From the NCBI GenBank assembly GCA_003151735.1, contig PLYI01000055.1:124001-188000 (forward strand): DNA of 64,000 bases. The letters are read 5' to 3'. Positions 23,990-36,901 of this stretch are shown here, one piece after another. The translations under genes were made by a program, and so were the position numbers. The notes under the pieces are model-generated. The model was not told the DNA's origin. It was given only the letters and a program-made list of their open reading frames with translations, and ran no database searches. The stretch comes from Candidatus Bathyarchaeota archaeon (GTDB lineage: Archaea; Thermoproteota; Bathyarchaeia; Bathyarchaeales; Bathycorpusculaceae). The number at the start of each line of letters is the position of its first letter. Positions within the stretch are counted from its first letter, which is position 1.

Positions 23990-24169
23990 ACATTTTCACC
24001 TCCAATTGAAGGTTGCTGACAATTGTTATTCTTGCGGCTGGAATGGTTATTAAAAATATGTGACTGCATCCACGCAACAACCAAAATTAAAAAACCTAAA
24101 ACCCTAATATCTCAGGGACAATACATAAGTACAAAAAAAGACTATTCACATAAATACAAGGTTGTTAGT

Positions 24170-25438
24170 ATGAATAAATTTTATGTTGCATTAACCTTAG
24201 CAATCTTATGCCTATCAATTGCATTATCTCTCTCATTTACCGTTAACGCTCAGCAAGCAGAATCCTGGCCAATGTTCCACAAAGACCCAGCGCACACTGG
24301 CTACTCAACTGCCACAGGCCCCAGCACAAACCAAACCCTCTGGACCTTTAAAACAAACGGGTGGGTACTGTCTTCCCCAGCAGTCGCCAACAACGTGCTC
24401 TATTTTACTTCCTCTGACAAAGGATACTTCGGCACCTCAAACAACAACATCTATGCGGTAAATGCCAAAGATGGAACAAAAATCTGGAACTATTCAGTCA
24501 GCGCAAAAATTTATACTTCCCCCGCAGTTGCGGACGGAATGGTTTTCTTTGGGTCAGATGACCACGCTATTTACGCATTAAACGCCACAACAGGCGCTTA
24601 CCTTTGGAAGTGCATAACCGACGGTCAAGCAGAAGGCGTACCAACTGTTTCAGGCGGAATCCTGTATGCAGGTTCAAACGACGGCAAACTGTACGCTTTT
24701 AACGATGCTCTTGGCATGCCGATATGGAACTTTACCACAGGCGGCTACGTCACCTCAGGCCCTGCAGTATCAAACGGCGTAGTGTATTTCGGTTCATACG
24801 ACCATAATGTTTACGCCTTAGATGCTTTAACAGGCGCTAAAAAATGGAGTTTCACAACAGGTAGCGTTGTGGCATCTTCTCCGGTTGTAGCGGATGGCAA
24901 AGTTTACGTCGGTAGCTTTGACAACAAAACTTACGCCTTAAACGCTGACACTGGCGCTTTAATCTGGAATGTCACAACTGGCTACGACCAGTGCGTTCAG
25001 GCTTCTCCCGCGTTCGCTAACGGCGTAATCTACACAGGCGGCGCCTTCGACCACAAAGTCTACGCTCTGGATGCCACAACTGGCGCAACAAAATGGAGCT
25101 ACACAGCTGACGCAGGAATAACTTCTGCTCCAGCAATAGTAGGCAACACCGTTTACGTATCTTCCACTTTAGCTAACAAAACGTACGCTCTTAATTCACA
25201 GAATGGCAACTTAGTCTGGAGCTACCAAACAGGCGATAACCTTTACTCATCACCCGCGGTAGTCAATGGAGTGGCATACTTTGGCTCGTACGACGGCAAC
25301 CTCTACGCCATTGGGCAATCTTCAAGCCAGGTACCCGAAATACCCAGTTCCTTCACCAACTACATAATCGCCGTAATAGCTGTTGCATTAATAATAGTCG
25401 CTGTCGCAGTGACAATGCTTAGAAAACGAAACAAATAG
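24170..25438 (+). CDS. secreted, membrane-anchored PQQ-type beta-propeller protein
   Basis: The 422-residue protein has a signal peptide (about 1-25, ending VNA-QQ), about eight PQQ-like blades with the recurring YALNATTGAYLWK / SSPAVANGVVYFGSYDHNVYALDALTGAKKWSF units, and a C-terminal transmembrane helix followed by MLRKRNK. Such proteins sit on the outside of archaeal cells. The first mature residues WPMFHKDPAHTGYS are shared with the gene at 29481. I prefer the ATG at 24170 over upstream frame extension because the signal peptide begins there. No PQQ-dehydrogenase catalytic residues are evident, so a binding or scaffolding role is more likely. Confidence 0.9.
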   Translation: MNKFYVALTLAILCLSIALSLSFTVNAQQAESWPMFHKDPAHTGYSTATGPSTNQTLWTFKTNGWVLSSPAVANNVLYFTSSDKGYFGTSNNNIYAVNAKDGTKIWNYSVSAKIYTSPAVADGMVFFGSDDHAIYALNATTGAYLWKCITDGQAEGVPTVSGGILYAGSNDGKLYAFNDALGMPIWNFTTGGYVTSGPAVSNGVVYFGSYDHNVYALDALTGAKKWSFTTGSVVASSPVVADGKVYVGSFDNKTYALNADTGALIWNVTTGYDQCVQASPAFANGVIYTGGAFDHKVYALDATTGATKWSYTADAGITSAPAIVGNTVYVSSTLANKTYALNSQNGNLVWSYQTGDNLYSSPAVVNGVAYFGSYDGNLYAIGQSSSQVPEIPSSFTNYIIAVIAVALIIVAVAVTMLRKRNK

Positions 25439-29480: not shown

Positions 29481-30974
29481 TTGAAGAAAAAGTTTGCAGT
29501 TTTACTCTTGATTACGCTTTTTGTTGGCTTATTAGGTTCTGGTTTTAGCGGTAATTCCAATGCTACATCCAGCGGTGGCTCTGATTCTTGGCCAATGTAT
29601 CACAATGACTTAACTCATTCAGGCTACACAGCCCAGGCAGGACCACTGACCAATCAAACCCTGTGGAGCTACTCCTCAGACGATCCGCATTCTTCACCTA
29701 CGATTGCAGACGGCGTTGTTTACGTTGGCACACATACTGGCAAACTATTGGCTATAAACGCCTCTAACGGGGTAGCTTTATGGAGTTACCAATCTGGAGG
29801 CGACATCCATTCTACTCCTGCAGTCTCAGATAACATGGTGTACTTTGGGTCATATGATAACTCCGTGTATGCCATAGATGCTTCGACTGGAACATTAGTT
29901 TGGCGTGTGCAGACCAGTGACCATGTCCAGTCTTCTCCTGCTGTCGCCAACGGAGTAGTTTACATAGCTTCCTCAGATGCGAATGTTTACGCTTTCAATG
30001 CAACCATTGGGGAGCTTCTTTGGAGTTTTCCAACGCACAGCGGCGACGTTGGAGCTTCCCCTGCAGTCGTAAACGGAATAGTATACATTAGTGATAACGG
30101 AGAAGTTTGGGCTCTAAACGCTTACACGGGAGCAGCAATCTGGAAGTTTTCGGCTGGCGACACAGCCTATTCTTCACCAGCAGTTGTCAACGGCGTAGTC
30201 TACGTCGGTGGAGATACCCTCGCTGACGGCGCAGTCTACGCTTTGGATGCTTCGTCAGGGGCAAAGTTATGGAGTTTTTCAGCCAGCAACCTTTGGGTGT
30301 ATTCATCGCCTTCCGTGGCTAACGGAGTGGTTTACGTTGGCTCATACGACCATGATGCTACCGACATTGGTGTCAACAATGGTCTTCTCTTTGCTCTGGA
30401 TGCTTCAACAGGTAAAATGCTATGGAGCTACCCTGTTGGCACAGAAGTTTTAGACTCGCCTATCGTTGCAAACAATGTGGTTTATGCAGGCGGATACAAC
30501 ACCGACTTTTATGCTCTAAATGCCTCGACTGGAGCAAAACTATGGAGTTACCAAATAGAATTCCCCAGCACTTATAGTTGGTCGTCTGCCGCTGTCGCAG
30601 GCGGCGTTCTGTATGTAGACTTTGAGGGAGGAACCCTTTTTGCGTTTGGCTCTTCAAACTCTGCAACAACGCCAACACCTACCCCAGGCACACAAACAAA
30701 TGCAACAGTGTCAGCCCTAACAGATAACGGCGTAGTCAACCTTGCCCTAAGCGGAAACATAACCAGCGCACAAATGTCCAACGTTACAATCGCAGCAAAC
30801 AACGCCACAACAACCGGCTTGTATTTCACAGTTACAGGCGAAAGCGGCACTATTGGTTTTAGCAAAATAACCATTCCGAAAAGCTTAGTGCCCCCTGAGG
30901 CAACTCCGTTAATTTTTATAGATGGATTGCCAGCGCAAAGCCAAGGCTTCACCCAAGACGCCAACAACTACTAA
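29481..30974 (+). CDS. secreted PQQ-type beta-propeller protein (C-terminal anchor lost by frameshift)
   Basis: A TTG-started protein of 497 residues with signal peptide (about 1-25), eight or so PQQ-like blades (VVYVGTHTGKLLAINASNGVALWSYQSGG type) and a Pro/Thr region (TTPTPTPGTQTN) leading to a beta domain. It is a paralogue of the gene at 24170 and shares the mature start SWPMYHNDLTHSGYTAQAGP. It stops at TAA (30972-30974) just after a run that is continued in another frame; see the fragment below. A one-base insertion breaks the gene near 30973. Confidence 0.87.
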   Translation: MKKKFAVLLLITLFVGLLGSGFSGNSNATSSGGSDSWPMYHNDLTHSGYTAQAGPLTNQTLWSYSSDDPHSSPTIADGVVYVGTHTGKLLAINASNGVALWSYQSGGDIHSTPAVSDNMVYFGSYDNSVYAIDASTGTLVWRVQTSDHVQSSPAVANGVVYIASSDANVYAFNATIGELLWSFPTHSGDVGASPAVVNGIVYISDNGEVWALNAYTGAAIWKFSAGDTAYSSPAVVNGVVYVGGDTLADGAVYALDASSGAKLWSFSASNLWVYSSPSVANGVVYVGSYDHDATDIGVNNGLLFALDASTGKMLWSYPVGTEVLDSPIVANNVVYAGGYNTDFYALNASTGAKLWSYQIEFPSTYSWSSAAVAGGVLYVDFEGGTLFAFGSSNSATTPTPTPGTQTNATVSALTDNGVVNLALSGNITSAQMSNVTIAANNATTTGLYFTVTGESGTIGFSKITIPKSLVPPEATPLIFIDGLPAQSQGFTQDANNY

Positions 30975-31292: not shown

Positions 31293-31676
31293 TTAGAGCA
31301 CTATTATTTTTGCACTTTCAAAGTTCAAGAAATCCTTATCTTTGGTTATCAGCGTTTCATTGTTTGCAGCTACTATACCTGCTATAAGAACATCAAGTTC
31401 ATTGACCATCTTTCCTTTTTCTGCCAGCCTCTTATGCGCTTTTACCGCTTCCTTTACAACAGTATCCTCAAAATCGTAAATAACAAACTGATTAAGCAAC
31501 CCTGAAACCAAACCTGCATCTTTCTCGGTTGTTCCCCTTAAGATTTCATACTTGCTGATGACTGTAGTAGCGATTCGTTCTTTTTCGGCATAGGATTCTA
31601 TCAAGTCCTTGGCATAGTTCTTTTTTCTTAAAACATCAATAATTATGGAGGAATCAAAAATAACCATTGGATTCAC
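31293..31676 (-). CDS. vapC: VapC-type PIN-domain toxin ribonuclease
   Basis: The 127-residue PIN-domain RNase has the acidic active-site residues in FDSSIIIDVLR (Asp), KYEILRG (Glu) and LDVLIAGIVAANNETLITKDKDF (Asp, Asp). Members cut tRNA or rRNA and are held inactive by the partner antitoxin. It overlaps the antitoxin start by four bases, antitoxin first, the normal vapBC order. It lies between the two tRNA-Val copies. Confidence 0.92.
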   Translation of the reverse strand: MNPMVIFDSSIIIDVLRKKNYAKDLIESYAEKERIATTVISKYEILRGTTEKDAGLVSGLLNQFVIYDFEDTVVKEAVKAHKRLAEKGKMVNELDVLIAGIVAANNETLITKDKDFLNFESAKIIVL

Positions 31677-31918
31677 TCAATCGAGATATTTCGTAGGACA
31701 GCCCGCTTTCTGCTTTTCTCTAATTCAGCAGTTATTTTCCCGGCGCTCTCTTCACTTAACGCTTCATGCGTATTTAAGAAGTCAAGGATTCTTTGGGGAT
31801 CGCCTTTATTTTCACATTTCTCAATCAGCGTCTTAAGTAACTGTGTAAAGGACTTTCCATCTTTCATTCTAGATAGGTCAAAATAGACTTCATCTGATAT
31901 TGATATTACTCGAACCAT
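31673..31918 (-). CDS. vapB: VapB-type antitoxin (archaeal DUF217-like)
   Basis: About 81 residues from ATG at 31918 (a few codons upstream also open to 31936). The MVRVISISDEVYFDLSRMKDGKSFTQLLKTLIEKCENKG start is the archaeal VapB DNA-binding/dimerisation motif; the C-terminal helix (LSEESAGKITAELEKSRK) would wrap the toxin. Ends in the vapC start codon. It probably represses its own promoter. Confidence 0.88.
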   Translation of the reverse strand: MVRVISISDEVYFDLSRMKDGKSFTQLLKTLIEKCENKGDPQRILDFLNTHEALSEESAGKITAELEKSRKRAVLRNISIE

Positions 31919-32029
31919 TTGCGTTAACCCAATCAATATCTATACATGCATGCATATATTTGCATTTTGGAGAGCCAAAAATCGCTAAAGGTCCTTGGAA
32001 AAAAGGTGTATAACCCAATTTATCGAAGA

Positions 32030-32107
32030 TGGTGGGCCGAGCCGGACTCGGACCGGCGACCTTTGGCTCGTAAAGCCAACGTCCTAACCAGGCTAGACGA
32101 CCGGCCC
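32030..32107 (-). tRNA. tRNA-Val (anticodon TAC)
   Basis: The minus strand folds as a full cloverleaf: acceptor GGGCCGG/TCGGCCC, D-arm GTCT/GGAC, anticodon arm TTGGC-TTTACGA-GCCAA with anticodon TAC (Val), variable AGGTC, T-arm GCCGG/CCGGC, discriminator A (32033), and CCA encoded (32030-32032). No intron. The T-loop reads TCCGAGT, with C in place of the nearly invariant T55; the partial copy at 31190 has TTCGAGT. The gene sits at one end of a 44-base direct repeat. Confidence 0.93.
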
Positions 32108-32320: not shown

Positions 32321-33541
32321 ATGCAAAAAAGCTTAAGTGTTAAACCATCCCATACAAAAACCGAACGCCCAATGAAGTTGAAAGGCTCACCCATCAAGCT
32401 GAATACTTATGAAGTTTCTGAAATGCTAACAAACAGGCATTTTAAAGAATTCAAAATGGATGAATTCGAAAAAATTCACCTTCCTGAAAGCATGACGCCT
32501 TTCACAAATCTCAACCCTCTGGCTACCAAAGAGTTTGTTGCGGATGATAATAGAGGAGCAGTTTCCCCTTTGCCCTCTTTAAAGATGGATGGCACTGACT
32601 TTTACCTTTCAGTTAAAGGAATCGGTTCAACAACAAATCCTTTTTCTCATCAACTTCTCGGGAAAAATGAAATATGTAATCTACTAAAAGATTCCAGACT
32701 AAAAGAAAAAATTGTAAATTCAGCAGAAACAGCTCCACGATACTTAACAGGGGAATTATGGTTAAGAGGTTCCCCATATGGGGGACAGGGACTTGATCAT
32801 GCAATCACCTCGATGAAAGTATCAGAAATGGCCGACCTCACCTCAATTCATGGATTCCGAATTGCACCCCTCGTGAAAATTGCTTTCCTACCTGATGATC
32901 TAGAGACTGAAATAAAAAAAATATACTGGTACCGTAAATTCAGGGGGCGGATGGTTCAGGAAACAAGATTGGTTCCGTCCAATGTCAGGATTTATTTTCA
33001 TTCAGGGAGCACAATCGGTAGTAATATAAAATCAATCTTTAACATGTTTCAATTAGACAAGAACGATAAAGCATTAGAGTTTCTGAGAAATTTCGTAAAG
33101 AGTGGAATTGCATATCTTACTCTTTTTGTGAGGACATTAAAAGTTAACGTGGATGGGACTTTCAGCGGATTGGACTTCTATGATGTTTGGCTAGATAAGG
33201 ATGCAGTTCTAGCTCCTGACGGCACAATTTTCTTTGTTGACCTTGAAGGCTTAGAATGGATAACTGTTGAGGAAAAGAAAATCTCGGAAAAGATAGACGA
33301 CCAAATATACAGATCTTTGTACGAATTTATGTTCGCCTACGAGCAGATAGAACGAGAAAGATCTGCAAGGTTCGGAGACTGTACGGATAGGAAAGTGCAG
33401 TTCGAGTATCTTCTCAAAGATGCTCTCAAAGATGATGAGGTTGTCGACCTTGCAAGTGAGGGACAAAGCCTTAAACTATTAATAGGTAACATATTAGGAG
33501 AACAACGTTTAACAAAGGAATTTCCAATCTTGGATCGGTGA
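32321..33541 (+). CDS. unassigned protein, possible SelO/kinase-like; first gene of an overlapping three-gene module
   Basis: The 406-residue cytosolic protein has no membrane segment. Weak features recall SelO-type protein AMPylases: a VKGIGSTTNPFS stretch (like LKG.GPTPYSR), KVSEMADLTSIHGFRIAPLVKI (like FLASEAMHALGIPTTRAL), and DKDAVLAPDGTIFFVDLEGLEW, which resembles a kinase D-E/F-G segment. I see no strict conservation of the SelO catalytic set. The DNA is more AT-rich than nearby housekeeping genes. Its stop overlaps the next ATG (ATGA). No promoter is obvious, but an AT-rich stretch lies near 32250-32270. Assignment is tentative. Confidence 0.6.
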   Translation: MQKSLSVKPSHTKTERPMKLKGSPIKLNTYEVSEMLTNRHFKEFKMDEFEKIHLPESMTPFTNLNPLATKEFVADDNRGAVSPLPSLKMDGTDFYLSVKGIGSTTNPFSHQLLGKNEICNLLKDSRLKEKIVNSAETAPRYLTGELWLRGSPYGGQGLDHAITSMKVSEMADLTSIHGFRIAPLVKIAFLPDDLETEIKKIYWYRKFRGRMVQETRLVPSNVRIYFHSGSTIGSNIKSIFNMFQLDKNDKALEFLRNFVKSGIAYLTLFVRTLKVNVDGTFSGLDFYDVWLDKDAVLAPDGTIFFVDLEGLEWITVEEKKISEKIDDQIYRSLYEFMFAYEQIERERSARFGDCTDRKVQFEYLLKDALKDDEVVDLASEGQSLKLLIGNILGEQRLTKEFPILDR

Positions 33542-35103
33542 TTGAAATGAAATGCAACGACGTAAGGATATTCTTCTCCCAAATAGCTGAAAAATCCGTT
33601 TCGATGCAAATTCAATATTCCGACATGGATTTTCTCGTCAGCAAAGGGTACCTTTCTGTAATGCAAAAAGAAGATTATGACCAGGCAGTCGCTGAACTTT
33701 CAGACCTCACACAGATGAATATAGACCTAGCGAATGCATGGAATGCTGACAGGAGCGCAAAGGCCGCCCTGGAAGGAGAGGAGAAAAAAACCCATTCAAT
33801 AACCTTTCTTTTTGAAGACAAAGAGAACAAAGAGGCTGAACGAAATAAAGTAGAAAGCGAAAAGATTATTGTCTCAAAAATGGAAGCCAACGTAACAGAA
33901 AGGCAAGCCAAGATTAACGAGTTAATTACCAAGAAATCGAAAATGGACAGAATGGTCCCATATGACGGAAAATATTTGTCACTCACGGGCATCGGAATAA
34001 TGATGCTAAACGATCTTAACGTAAGAAACTACAGGATCTCTGACGAAGAATTTTCCGATTTTATTCAAGAAATCCAAACTACATTCAGCGAACTGCAATC
34101 CATAGCGGAACGGGGCAATTATCATGTAGCTAATCTGAAGATTAGTTTCCCAGAAATGGACCTCTCTCAGCTCTGGAGTGTATCGATAGGTTTAGCCAAG
34201 CTTCAAGGCGACCCCAACCAAATTGGTCAACGATTTCTTTTTGCACTTGACCTCCTTCGACATTTCGATTGCACACTTGAAAACAAGATGATGGCCGCGG
34301 AAATTATGGACTCATCTAGGACAGATCCCTCGCAAACATCAACAAATTCTGATCTTCAAAACTTGTCGGAAACTTTAGCTAAACTAGATCACCAACTTAA
34401 GAATGAAGCGCACGTTCCCAATCCGCTATCAGTGGGCGTTGCTGCCACTATACTGTTTGGGCGGAGATATGACGGCACTTTTCCCACGGACCGATTCGTG
34501 GAATTTTCTAAAATGACTTCTTCGTACGAGTCAGCTGCAATACTCTCGATATTTAATGTGCCCTCAGATCAACTGGTTAGCAAGTTCCAATCGTTTAGAA
34601 TGCTTTTTAATTCCTGGAATTTTGATGTATCCGAGGATACCGAGCTTGCTTCAGCATATTTAGCGACTTCCGATTTGGGACCGGAAGACGTAAGATCAAA
34701 GTTAACAATAATTGAGAATGGGCTAAGAAATTATCTGGAATATCCACTTGTGGCATCCGCAATACTTGCGTCAATATCAACTCTTGAAGCTAACGAGACT
34801 CTTGACCTAATGGAAAAGGCATCTTTTTTGCTTGGGTCTTACATTAAAGATCTTGAGCGATCCGAAGTGATTAGTCTAGCGGTCAGGATGATTCATGGAA
34901 TCAAAAATGAACTTGTCAAGCAACTTGATCCAACCGCAACTATTGTAAATACTCCAGTGCAGTTCACCTATATCCCAACAAACATTTTCTTCTTCTACTA
35001 CGCACCTCTGATCATTGCACACTCGTCTTATCACTCAACATTCAGCGGCATAGGCGGCTATCATCCTGCCCATGTTCACGGTGTAGGAGGCTTCATGGGA
35101 TGA
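33538..35103 (+). CDS. unassigned helical/coiled-coil protein with His-rich C-terminal tail
   Basis: The 521-residue protein starts on an ATGA overlap with the gene before. Residues 80-145 are a coiled coil rich in Lys/Glu. The central part (about 150-470) is predicted helical, with repeated LAxxL patterns (FCLDLLRHFDCTLENKMMAAEIMD; ESAAILSIFNVPSDQLVSKF), resembling HEAT-like or DUF4003-type helical proteins. The last 45 residues have an aromatic hydrophobic run (PTNIFFFYYAPLIIAHSSYHS) and a tail with HPAHVHG, a likely metal site. Family unknown. Confidence 0.6.
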   Translation: MIEMKCNDVRIFFSQIAEKSVSMQIQYSDMDFLVSKGYLSVMQKEDYDQAVAELSDLTQMNIDLANAWNADRSAKAALEGEEKKTHSITFLFEDKENKEAERNKVESEKIIVSKMEANVTERQAKINELITKKSKMDRMVPYDGKYLSLTGIGIMMLNDLNVRNYRISDEEFSDFIQEIQTTFSELQSIAERGNYHVANLKISFPEMDLSQLWSVSIGLAKLQGDPNQIGQRFLFALDLLRHFDCTLENKMMAAEIMDSSRTDPSQTSTNSDLQNLSETLAKLDHQLKNEAHVPNPLSVGVAATILFGRRYDGTFPTDRFVEFSKMTSSYESAAILSIFNVPSDQLVSKFQSFRMLFNSWNFDVSEDTELASAYLATSDLGPEDVRSKLTIIENGLRNYLEYPLVASAILASISTLEANETLDLMEKASFLLGSYIKDLERSEVISLAVRMIHGIKNELVKQLDPTATIVNTPVQFTYIPTNIFFFYYAPLIIAHSSYHSTFSGIGGYHPAHVHGVGGFMG

Positions 35104-36164
35104 ACACAAAATCCTTTGTTATAATGCTATCACTTATTCTAGCTGTCTTTATGGCACCCCTCGCCGCTGCTTATATTCCCCACGTTGGAGACCATTTCAG
35201 CTATTATGAGACTACAAATCTTGGAAGCGGCACCGGCGATTACACTGGATATACCGAACAAGCAACATACAACGGATTAGAAACAATTAACGGCGTCAAT
35301 TCTGACGGAACCGTATCGGCTCACTATAGTTACTCCTACACATGGAGCAATAGCACAGGCACAGTAGAAACTGGGAGTCCGTCTGGAGATTTCACGTTCT
35401 CACCAGACACTTTTCGTTATATTAATGGAACCGACGATCAGACGGGATATGTTAACCCGACTGTCTGGTTCGTTATGGATAACTCACTTCCAGTAGGCGG
35501 CACCTTTACTCTTCTGAACACAGAGATGACGGTCATGTCCAAAAATTACAGCTACTATCTCCCGTCCCAGAATGAAAATGTGATGGTGATTTTTGCTCAA
35601 GGACAGTCGAGCTACGAGCGGAACGACGTGTATGGACAATTCAGTGTCTCCTATACATGGAAAGCATACTTTGATCCGTCGGCAGGATACATAGTGGGGT
35701 ATAGCTATGTTGAACGAGATACCGACAATTCAGGAACAGGGTTCACCTACACAGAAGACCTGAATGTGAATTCTACTAGCTATCCATTAACCGCTGGGCC
35801 CCCAAACAATACAGGAGGGACACCCACCCCGATTGTCAGCAACCCCAGAGGAACAACTCCAAACCCAACCATATATTTTGGTTTCCTTGCAGGAGCAGTC
35901 CTATTCTTAGTTGTCATTGTTATAATTGTAATTCTGGTTTATTCACTTTCAAGAAGAGGCAGAAAAACGCTTCCCCAACATTCATACCAACAACCACCTC
36001 CACCGCCAGGCCCCCCTCCAGAGAACATCAACCTAACATCAAAACAACCGCAAGTACAGCAGATAGTGATTAAAGAAGTAGTGAAAGTTAAGTGCCGGTA
36101 CTGCGGAGCACTGATAGACTCCACAGCCGAGACATGTCCAATATGCGGAGCACCCAGAACATAG
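35100..36164 (+). CDS. secreted-domain membrane protein with cytoplasmic zinc ribbon
   Basis: The 354-residue protein overlaps the gene before by an ATGA. A signal peptide (about 1-22) leads to an extracellular beta-rich domain with many Ser/Thr/Tyr, then a transmembrane helix (about 262-285: FGFLAGAVLFLVVIVIIVILVYSL), a Pro/Gln-rich linker and a C-terminal zinc ribbon (KCRYCGALIDSTAETCPICGAP), with CxxC and CxxC. The topology places the ribbon in the cytoplasm. With the two soluble partners it forms a single transcript. Function unknown. Confidence 0.75.
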   Translation: MNTKSFVIMLSLILAVFMAPLAAAYIPHVGDHFSYYETTNLGSGTGDYTGYTEQATYNGLETINGVNSDGTVSAHYSYSYTWSNSTGTVETGSPSGDFTFSPDTFRYINGTDDQTGYVNPTVWFVMDNSLPVGGTFTLLNTEMTVMSKNYSYYLPSQNENVMVIFAQGQSSYERNDVYGQFSVSYTWKAYFDPSAGYIVGYSYVERDTDNSGTGFTYTEDLNVNSTSYPLTAGPPNNTGGTPTPIVSNPRGTTPNPTIYFGFLAGAVLFLVVIVIIVILVYSLSRRGRKTLPQHSYQQPPPPPGPPPENINLTSKQPQVQQIVIKEVVKVKCRYCGALIDSTAETCPICGAPRT

Positions 36165-36169
36165 ATAAC

Positions 36170-36901
36170 TTACTGATTTTTCATTTCATTCTTTTTGTTT
36201 AAGTCTTTCTTAAAATACTGAAAAACCTGTCCGGACACCTTCATTTGCACTTTCATGACATTATTTGAAGATGGGATGTTATAGCGTGAAATTTCAGTGA
36301 ATGTTGAAAGGGCTTGGTTTGACTTGAGCCAGTGAAGTCGTGCATTGAGGATATCTTCTCCTATGCCTATTCTTCTGTATGGAGGCTTCACGTAAAGAGA
36401 GTGTAGTCTTCCAACACCGTTGACAAGTGAGACCCAACCCAACCCAGCAATTTCGTTGCTTAGTCTGACAATGTAACACTTTTCTCCATTTTTGAGTGCA
36501 ATTTTTACCCACTTCTTGTTTATTCCTGGATGGGTTGAAGACATTAATTGTTCTATCTCACCTATGTTCCCATTGTCTATTGAAGAAATTTCATAGCTGA
36601 ATCTGTGAGCAAGGGTAAGGTGTTCAATGTCTATGGCGTAAATATCATAGATTTCATTTTCAAGCTCAGTTTTCATCTCTGAGAAGAGAAAATTAAACTG
36701 TTTTAAACCATAAAAATAGTCAAAAATTTCTCTTGATCTTGCATAAATTGTTCCTCCTTTCTCAAAGTCGTCGTAAATGAAAATACCTGAAATAGTGCCT
36801 TCGGAGGTTCTGGCTACATAGGCTTCGCCGCCTATTTCAAGAATCTCTTTGATATGATAATTAAGATAAGGTTCAAAGAACGAAAAACCAACAGGAAACA
36901 C
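36170..36901 (-). CDS. GNAT-family N-acetyltransferase
   Basis: The 243-residue protein's C-terminal half (about 100-215) is a GNAT domain: WVKIALKNGEKCYIVRLSNEIAGLGWVSLVNGVGRLHSLYVKPPYRRIGIGEDILNARLHWL, with the acetyl-CoA binding RRIGIGE. The N-terminal half is a second, degenerate GNAT-like unit, as in tandem-GNAT proteins. The first frame start is GTG at 36901; upstream in-frame codons (IRNISDIDF) look like a natural N-terminus but lack an ATG, GTG or TTG. Substrate unknown. Confidence 0.82.
   Translation of the reverse strand: MFPVGFSFFEPYLNYHIKEILEIGGEAYVARTSEGTISGIFIYDDFEKGGTIYARSREIFDYFYGLKQFNFLFSEMKTELENEIYDIYAIDIEHLTLAHRFSYEISSIDNGNIGEIEQLMSSTHPGINKKWVKIALKNGEKCYIVRLSNEIAGLGWVSLVNGVGRLHSLYVKPPYRRIGIGEDILNARLHWLKSNQALSTFTEISRYNIPSSNNVMKVQMKVSGQVFQYFKKDLNKKNEMKNQ

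Follow-up and report, generated by a model that had tools for sequence, protein, structure and literature searches.

The window analysed here is a stretch of 64,000 nucleotides from the Candidatus Bathyarchaeota archaeon contig PLYI01000055.1. Within it, three genes on the forward strand meet a convergent fourth, which encodes a GNAT acetyltransferase. That these genes form a conserved four-gene module is well supported by the comparisons below, and two of the four proteins are without match to any named family. The features of the module are as follows, in window coordinates.

Gene 1, 32321 to 33541, + strand: 406 residues, probable true start 32372; probably a kinase-fold enzyme, from a new family.
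Residues of gene 1: K99, R216 and R223 (SelO-like nucleotide site, by sequence correspondence); D294 and D307 (candidate metal residues).
Gene 2, 33538 to 35103, + strand: 521 residues, true start perhaps 33547; helical, with a long predicted coiled coil, an aromatic segment, an HPxHxH motif and a C-terminal Gly.
Tail codons of gene 2, 35056 to 35100, + strand: for the tail GYHPAHVHGVGGFMG, with HPxHxH and the final Gly.
Gene 3, 35100 to 36164, + strand: 354 residues; an N-terminal hydrophobic, signal-like segment, an ectodomain, one transmembrane helix, a Pro-rich linker and a C-terminal four-Cys zinc ribbon.
Zinc-ribbon codons of gene 3, 36093 to 36149, + strand: Cys332 to Gly350.
Gene 4, 36170 to 36901, − strand: 243 residues, convergent; a GNAT acetyltransferase whose best NCBIfam match is RimI (under its cut-off).

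An original prediction, made from the DNA alone, had described genes 1 to 3 as a unit joined by ATGA overlaps. This holds for the second junction (35100). At the first, the overlap reads GTGA, unless gene 2 begins at the ATG at 33547, in which case 5 bases lie between the genes. The later start is suggested by mechanical open reading frames (ORFs), which begin at the corresponding MKC or MHC in 6 of 11 relatives. Met18 (32372) is probably the true start of gene 1, as judged from 10 full relatives, 7 of which have no earlier start codon in the ORF. The ratio of nonsynonymous to synonymous substitution rates (dN/dS), computed against the related locus L006, is ∼0.11 for gene 1, ∼0.13 for gene 2, ∼0.15 for gene 3 and ∼0.13 for the GNAT gene, indicating purifying selection on all four genes. 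The three predicted reading frames are real and were recovered with their features, namely the coiled coil (in a low-confidence model), the His-rich tail, the N-terminal hydrophobic segment, the single transmembrane helix and the C-terminal zinc ribbon.

When genome contigs from 84,980 species were scanned with protein 2, 11 loci were found, belonging to three Bathyarchaeota, one member of the Nitrososphaerales, five Thermoplasmata, one genome titled archaeon and one titled bacterium. Genes 1, 2 and 3 are present at all 11, with gene 1 cut by the contig end at one of them (L009). Synteny, proposed earlier as a check, is thus upheld, with genes 1–3 staying together in Bathyarchaeota, Nitrososphaerales and Thermoplasmata. 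The distribution of the module is patchy. Gene 1 occurs in 3 of 162 genomes of the window's order and 5 of 398 of its phylum (own genome included in each; one match in the phylum is weak, E 0.007). The class of locus L012, titled Thermoplasmata, yielded 66 of 400 genomes (one weak, E 0.004) and the phylum of the same locus 11 of 292, while the count was 3 of 300 for the class of L010's genome (that genome included).

We then assembled 73 loci, the window among them, chosen for holding gene 1 or gene 2. Not included were L032 and L109, which come from the two weak matches and hold none of the four families, and genomes G874 and G898. All four families are carried by 64 of the 73. Loci lacking the full set include six on short or cut contigs (L067, L069, L070, L072, L088 and L107), L091, which is without the GNAT, and L104, where a 561-residue GNAT protein has an ectodomain under threshold; gene 2 of L106 was picked up by a wider profile only. 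In 53 of the 64 complete loci the genes follow the order 1>2>3>4<, and the same is true of L086, where an over-long ORF start upset the sorting. A second order, 2>3>1>4>, is seen in L030, L031 and, outside the 64, L138; at L137 the contig ends after genes 1 and 4. By comparison of two lists from the 400 Thermoplasmata-class genomes, gene 1 is strongly matched in 65, and 64 of these also carry a module-linked gene 2; in the exception, G898, gene 1 lies at a contig end. Conversely, one genome (G865, L155:3488-7322) has genes 2 and 3 and the GNAT, and gene 1 was found neither on the contig nor in the search of that genome. The original unit of three genes thus survives as a conserved module with a membrane protein, but it was one gene short.

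A tree was built from 75 sequences of gene 1, and in it the window groups with the Bathyarchaeota, the Nitrososphaerales row, L015 and four more rows. This group adjoins L011, L012 and L058 and is nested among Thermoplasmata rows, which suggests that the module has been transferred as a whole. One caveat here is that the tree, from which fragments such as L009 were excluded, has a midpoint root and long branches, so its deep part is unsure. We found no description of the gene set in the literature searched; the families are nameless and subscription journals lay mostly outside coverage, so absence is not proven.

Protein 4 matches Pfam Acetyltransf_1 at 37 bits (cut-off 20.7) and has the RxxGIG acetyl-CoA motif, a loose form of which (R/QxxGxG/A) is found in 61 of 66 members; we therefore class the family as GNAT. 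It resembles RimI in these respects but scores under the RimI cut-off, has a longer N-terminal part and has relatives joined to a membrane ectodomain or a flavin adenine dinucleotide (FAD) oxidase domain. The convergent GNAT gene adjoins the module in relatives. In 8 of the 64 complete loci, ectodomain and GNAT form a single protein, and genes 1 and 2 come after it. Counting L106 as well, there are nine fused loci, all of the Thermoplasmata class; for this count, L100 has its ectodomain divided over two ORFs by unread bases. L139, outside the 64, is likewise fused and also has an ORF that bears the tail. The GNAT of the fused proteins comes directly after the transmembrane helix, and no zinc ribbon was seen in the two that were scanned against Pfam. 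Since the GNAT takes the place of the ribbon, the ribbon, a four-Cys element matching slightly under its Pfam cut-off, may dock the separate GNAT elsewhere. The fusions, like the predicted topology, also fit the earlier proposal that the ribbon faces the cytoplasm.

The Thermoplasmata-class loci L075:11546-13537 and L083:2927-4915 encode a GNAT joined to an N-terminal FAD-dependent DAO-type oxidase domain. This domain matches PF01266 (1e-61 and 3e-53); its best NCBIfam match, ThiO, is far under cut-off. Six GNAT proteins of 660–694 residues have a Rossmann-type start.

The C terminus of gene 2 is strongly conserved. Gly is the last residue in all 70 complete gene 2 proteins, compared to 109 of 1254 other mechanical ORFs of more than 200 residues, and the position before it is free. 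HPxHxH occurs within the last 45 residues in 65 of the 70. Because six of these proteins (L098, L099, L102, L104, L105 and L107) had been picked by that very pattern, the fair count is 59 of 64, although a profile later recovered gene 2 independently at all six loci. The counts leave out the truncated L070 and L088 as well as L106, and since the sequences are related they are not independent events. The stretch ahead of the tail passes a simple transmembrane threshold in only 5 of 70 proteins, so no tail anchor is shown. With HPxHxH in 65 of 70 tails (six motif-picked) and a four-Cys ribbon in gene 3, the complex could bind metal through both elements and sense or buffer it; the tail resembles HPxHLHG, a copper motif found in multicopper oxidases. 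We consider metal handling very unlikely, as it leaves the C-terminal Gly, gene 1 and the GNAT unexplained.

The structural model of gene 2 is poor (pTM 0.39) and its Foldseek search uninformative. DUF4003, which the original prediction had singled out for checking, is absent among all 16 families matched by 12 gene 2 members at E ≤ 1. PF07643 (DUF1598) was matched by 2 of these 12 relatives (best 6.4e-05) and by 1 of 39 members in a wider Pfam scan, for which 25 of the 37 families matched are listed; we take it as a chance match.

For the window's gene 1 product, searches of Pfam, NCBIfam and PADLOC gave no match, comparison with PDB sequences gave chance matches only, and 54 relatives scanned against Pfam gave only stray matches (E 0.097 or worse, one or two members each). 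The family has many invariant residues. Across 54 rows these are D75, D76, R78, K99, G100, G102, G144, E145, W147, P152, G154, G178, P183, W203, Q213, E214, R216, P219, S220, R223, H227, T267, R271, V289, D292, K293, D294, G301, D307, Q328 and D372. Some of them resemble SelO (YdiU, PF02696), which shows the same succession of elements: first a D-x-R stretch, then KGxG containing the nucleotide Lys, then an R-x6-R pair. In both, the position of the kinase catalytic Asp appears, by residue count, to be without Asp. The pattern KGxG followed by RxxPSxxR is present in 71 of 72 gene 1 rows, 2 of 7 SelO sequences, 0 of 12 NIS siderophore synthetases and 0 of 4248 other mechanical ORFs.

Profile alignment gave a compatible path, with family positions (fam1) 76-86, 88-104, 107-111 and 215-224 aligned to E. 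coli SelO 85-95, 96-112, 113-117 and 169-178. K99, R216 and R223 are thereby paired with K107, R170 and R177, which, at an offset of six, would correspond to K113, R176 and R183 of P. syringae SelO. In that enzyme, the flipped ATP is held by these three residues through its gamma phosphate (PMC8097203). Gene 1 thus has counterparts of Lys113 and the Arg176/Arg183 pair, as a correspondence of sequence only. With four gap settings, the gene 1–SelO score was reached by 5, 0, 0 and 0 of 100 column shuffles, compared to 69, 35, 19 and 24 for gene 1–NIS. With lenient gaps and 200 shuffles, the SelO score was reached by 2 and 0 and the NIS score by 38 and 62. For all 11 control pairings the count was 10 or more of 200. 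The alignment lends weak backing to kinship between gene 1 and SelO.

We consider a membrane-bound modification complex with SelO-like AMP transfer to be the likeliest single account of the module, with a probability of roughly 0.38. The four proteins would form a protein-modification complex on the inside of the archaeal membrane. Gene 3 would span the membrane with its ectodomain outward, where it could serve as a sensor, and its cytosolic zinc ribbon would dock the GNAT, holding the acetyltransferase at the membrane. The kinase-fold enzyme of gene 1 would bind ATP as SelO does, through K99, R216 and R223, while D294 and D307 would probably bind the metal, and it would transfer AMP instead of the gamma phosphate. 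Gene 2 may be its partner or substrate, offering the C-terminal HPxHxH...Gly tail as target. SelO moves AMP from ATP (PMC8097203) and NIS enzymes make an acyl adenylate (PMC3323832), and from this we infer that AMP transfer could be the common denominator. What is observed is the set of four genes and how it is conserved, together with the fusions, the tail and a weak motif-level match to SelO; the chemistry is presumptive. In this form, the signalling or protein-modification device with a membrane protein that was first proposed finds partial support.

Several results weigh against this account, most of them concerning gene 1. The SelO hidden Markov model (HMM; PF02696) is not among the Pfam matches of 54 family members, the best SelO match in the window's own genome is on another contig and reaches only 9.4 bits, and hhalign found no relation of gene 1 to SelO (7 sequences) or to NIS (12 sequences). 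A first gapped profile alignment with SelO scored 15.3, compared to 15.5 for the best of 12 shuffles, and aligned another region; it was not significant for NIS either. The lenient gap settings were picked after that test had failed, with the motifs already noticed by eye, and the 5 of 100 shuffles above is the result at the strict setting. When gene 1 was split into subgroups, the SelO score was reached by 3 and 3, and by 6 and 6, of 200 shuffles. Only two of seven SelO sequences have the PS that lies between the two Arg residues. Gene 1 reads DVWLDKDAV...DLEG in the C-lobe, compared to HGVMNTDN...DYG in SelO, and the SelO motifs (Asn253, Asp262) remain unaligned with it; SelO Glu136 has no clear counterpart in gene 1. 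In addition, 117 residues separate the Lys from the first Arg, rather than 63 as in E. coli SelO, and gene 1, unlike SelO, sits in a membrane module. Given the negative HMM scans and hhalign and the non-significant first gapped test, we rejected membership of SelO and kept the likeness at the motif level, where the weak SelO-type features of the original prediction find support.

Structure comparison also falls short of SelO. An AlphaFold model of gene 1, built from 11 sequences (pLDDT 72, pTM 0.71), gave 345 Foldseek matches in the PDB at E ≤ 10 and none at E ≤ 0.001, and SelO is absent from the best 50 of the 345. NIS siderophore synthetases (IucA/IucC family; DesD, AcsD) fill the first 20 rows, with a best E of 0.005 and low TM scores of 0.25–0.39. 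These matches, the occurrence of GNAT genes in NIS gene clusters and the GNAT–DAO fusion in the two proteins tested raise the idea of a biosynthetic module, in which a NIS-like gene 1 would adenylate a carboxylate and the GNAT, in some lineages with an FAD amine-oxidase domain, would make a small molecule or cap an envelope compound. NIS enzymes, like SelO, use ATP-to-AMP chemistry. However, they are about 570–590 residues long, compared to 406 for gene 1, and have other partner genes; IucA/IucC similarity was not found by Pfam, hhalign or the profile shuffles (19–69 of 100; 38 and 62 of 200), and we rejected NIS membership. No hydroxylase-looking cluster was seen by eye among the 25 flanking ORF clusters listed, and genes 2 and 3 have no obvious role in such a pathway, making it a quite improbable one.

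Lower Foldseek rows contain scattered kinase folds (ROP, PI3K, Bud32, maltokinase and viral protein kinases), all weak, and a viral fold library likewise returned weak matches, some of them kinases. D294 and D307 lie 13 residues apart, the spacing of protein kinases. Asn253 and Asp262 of SelO are 9 apart (PMC8097203). As part of a membrane signalling complex, gene 1 could thus act as an ordinary phosphotransferase, or serve as a kinase-fold scaffold without activity. We hold this to be rather unlikely: the apparently vacant catalytic Asp position and the SelO-like fit of the Arg pair speak against phosphotransfer, and the many invariant polar residues speak against a scaffold.

The invariant Gly invites another thought, in which gene 1 would activate the C terminus of gene 2 as an acyl adenylate, its kinase fold assuming the role that E1/ThiF enzymes play for ubiquitin-like proteins, and the tail would then be conjugated, cleaved or passed to the membrane-bound acetyltransferase. 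Of all the accounts entertained here, this appears the least probable.

The original prediction named homologues occurring apart as an argument against a functional unit. This applies in part, to the genome with genes 2–4 noted above and to a short, tail-less paralogue of protein 2. Ten further genomes from the Thermoplasmata-class search have the short paralogue only. We read 16 short-paralogue loci (L140–L156 without L155; e.g. L141:1645-2802 and L143:5752-7432), seven of them in module-bearing genomes. The paralogue is 385–430 residues long in 14 of the 16, and the copies printed have neither coiled coil nor tail. A small multi-transmembrane protein is found in 14 of the 16 loci, in 13 adjoining and in the same orientation. 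It marks, with the paralogue and the giant protein described next, a second and separate conserved neighbourhood. In the copies read, this small protein ends in KPKQGVGA. A giant secreted-looking protein is also present in 14 of the 16, and one that was scanned has carboxypeptidase-regulatory-like repeats.

Near the module itself, a secreted-looking protein of 722 residues is common to seven loci. Together with the neighbours of the short paralogue, it could point to maturation or export of cell-surface proteins, serving giant secreted proteins with gene 2 as a cytosolic adaptor. We strongly doubt this, since no such neighbour is repeated in most module loci and the paralogue is without tail and coiled coil.

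If SelO-like AMP transfer within a membrane complex is correct, the module would represent a kinase-fold family with a SelO-like nucleotide site working in a dedicated membrane complex. To our knowledge, AMPylation and membrane-tethered acetylation have been little studied in archaea. The invariant C-terminal Gly of gene 2 and the exchange of ribbon for acetyltransferase in the fusions offer concrete handles on function.

We also considered other readings of the locus. A known anti-phage defence system was rejected, as PADLOC gave 0 families for proteins 1–3 (protein 4 lay outside the scan). In phages and plasmids, tblastn of protein 1 returned nothing, and of 32 viral-contig stretches that fitted a pattern none was confirmed. 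A tRNA-Val gene (32030-32107, − strand) lies shortly upstream of the module; any tRNA was present in 11 of 49 related loci scanned, a lack of pattern that led us to discard a tRNA-associated genomic island. Among the flanking ORF clusters listed, an ABC ATPase recurs in 11 loci. Further upstream in the window, two small overlapping genes (31293-31936, − strand) have, by eye, the look of a PIN-domain toxin and its antitoxin, and two repeat-rich secreted proteins (24023-25438 and 29481-30974) have, likewise by eye, the look of PQQ-type beta-propellers.

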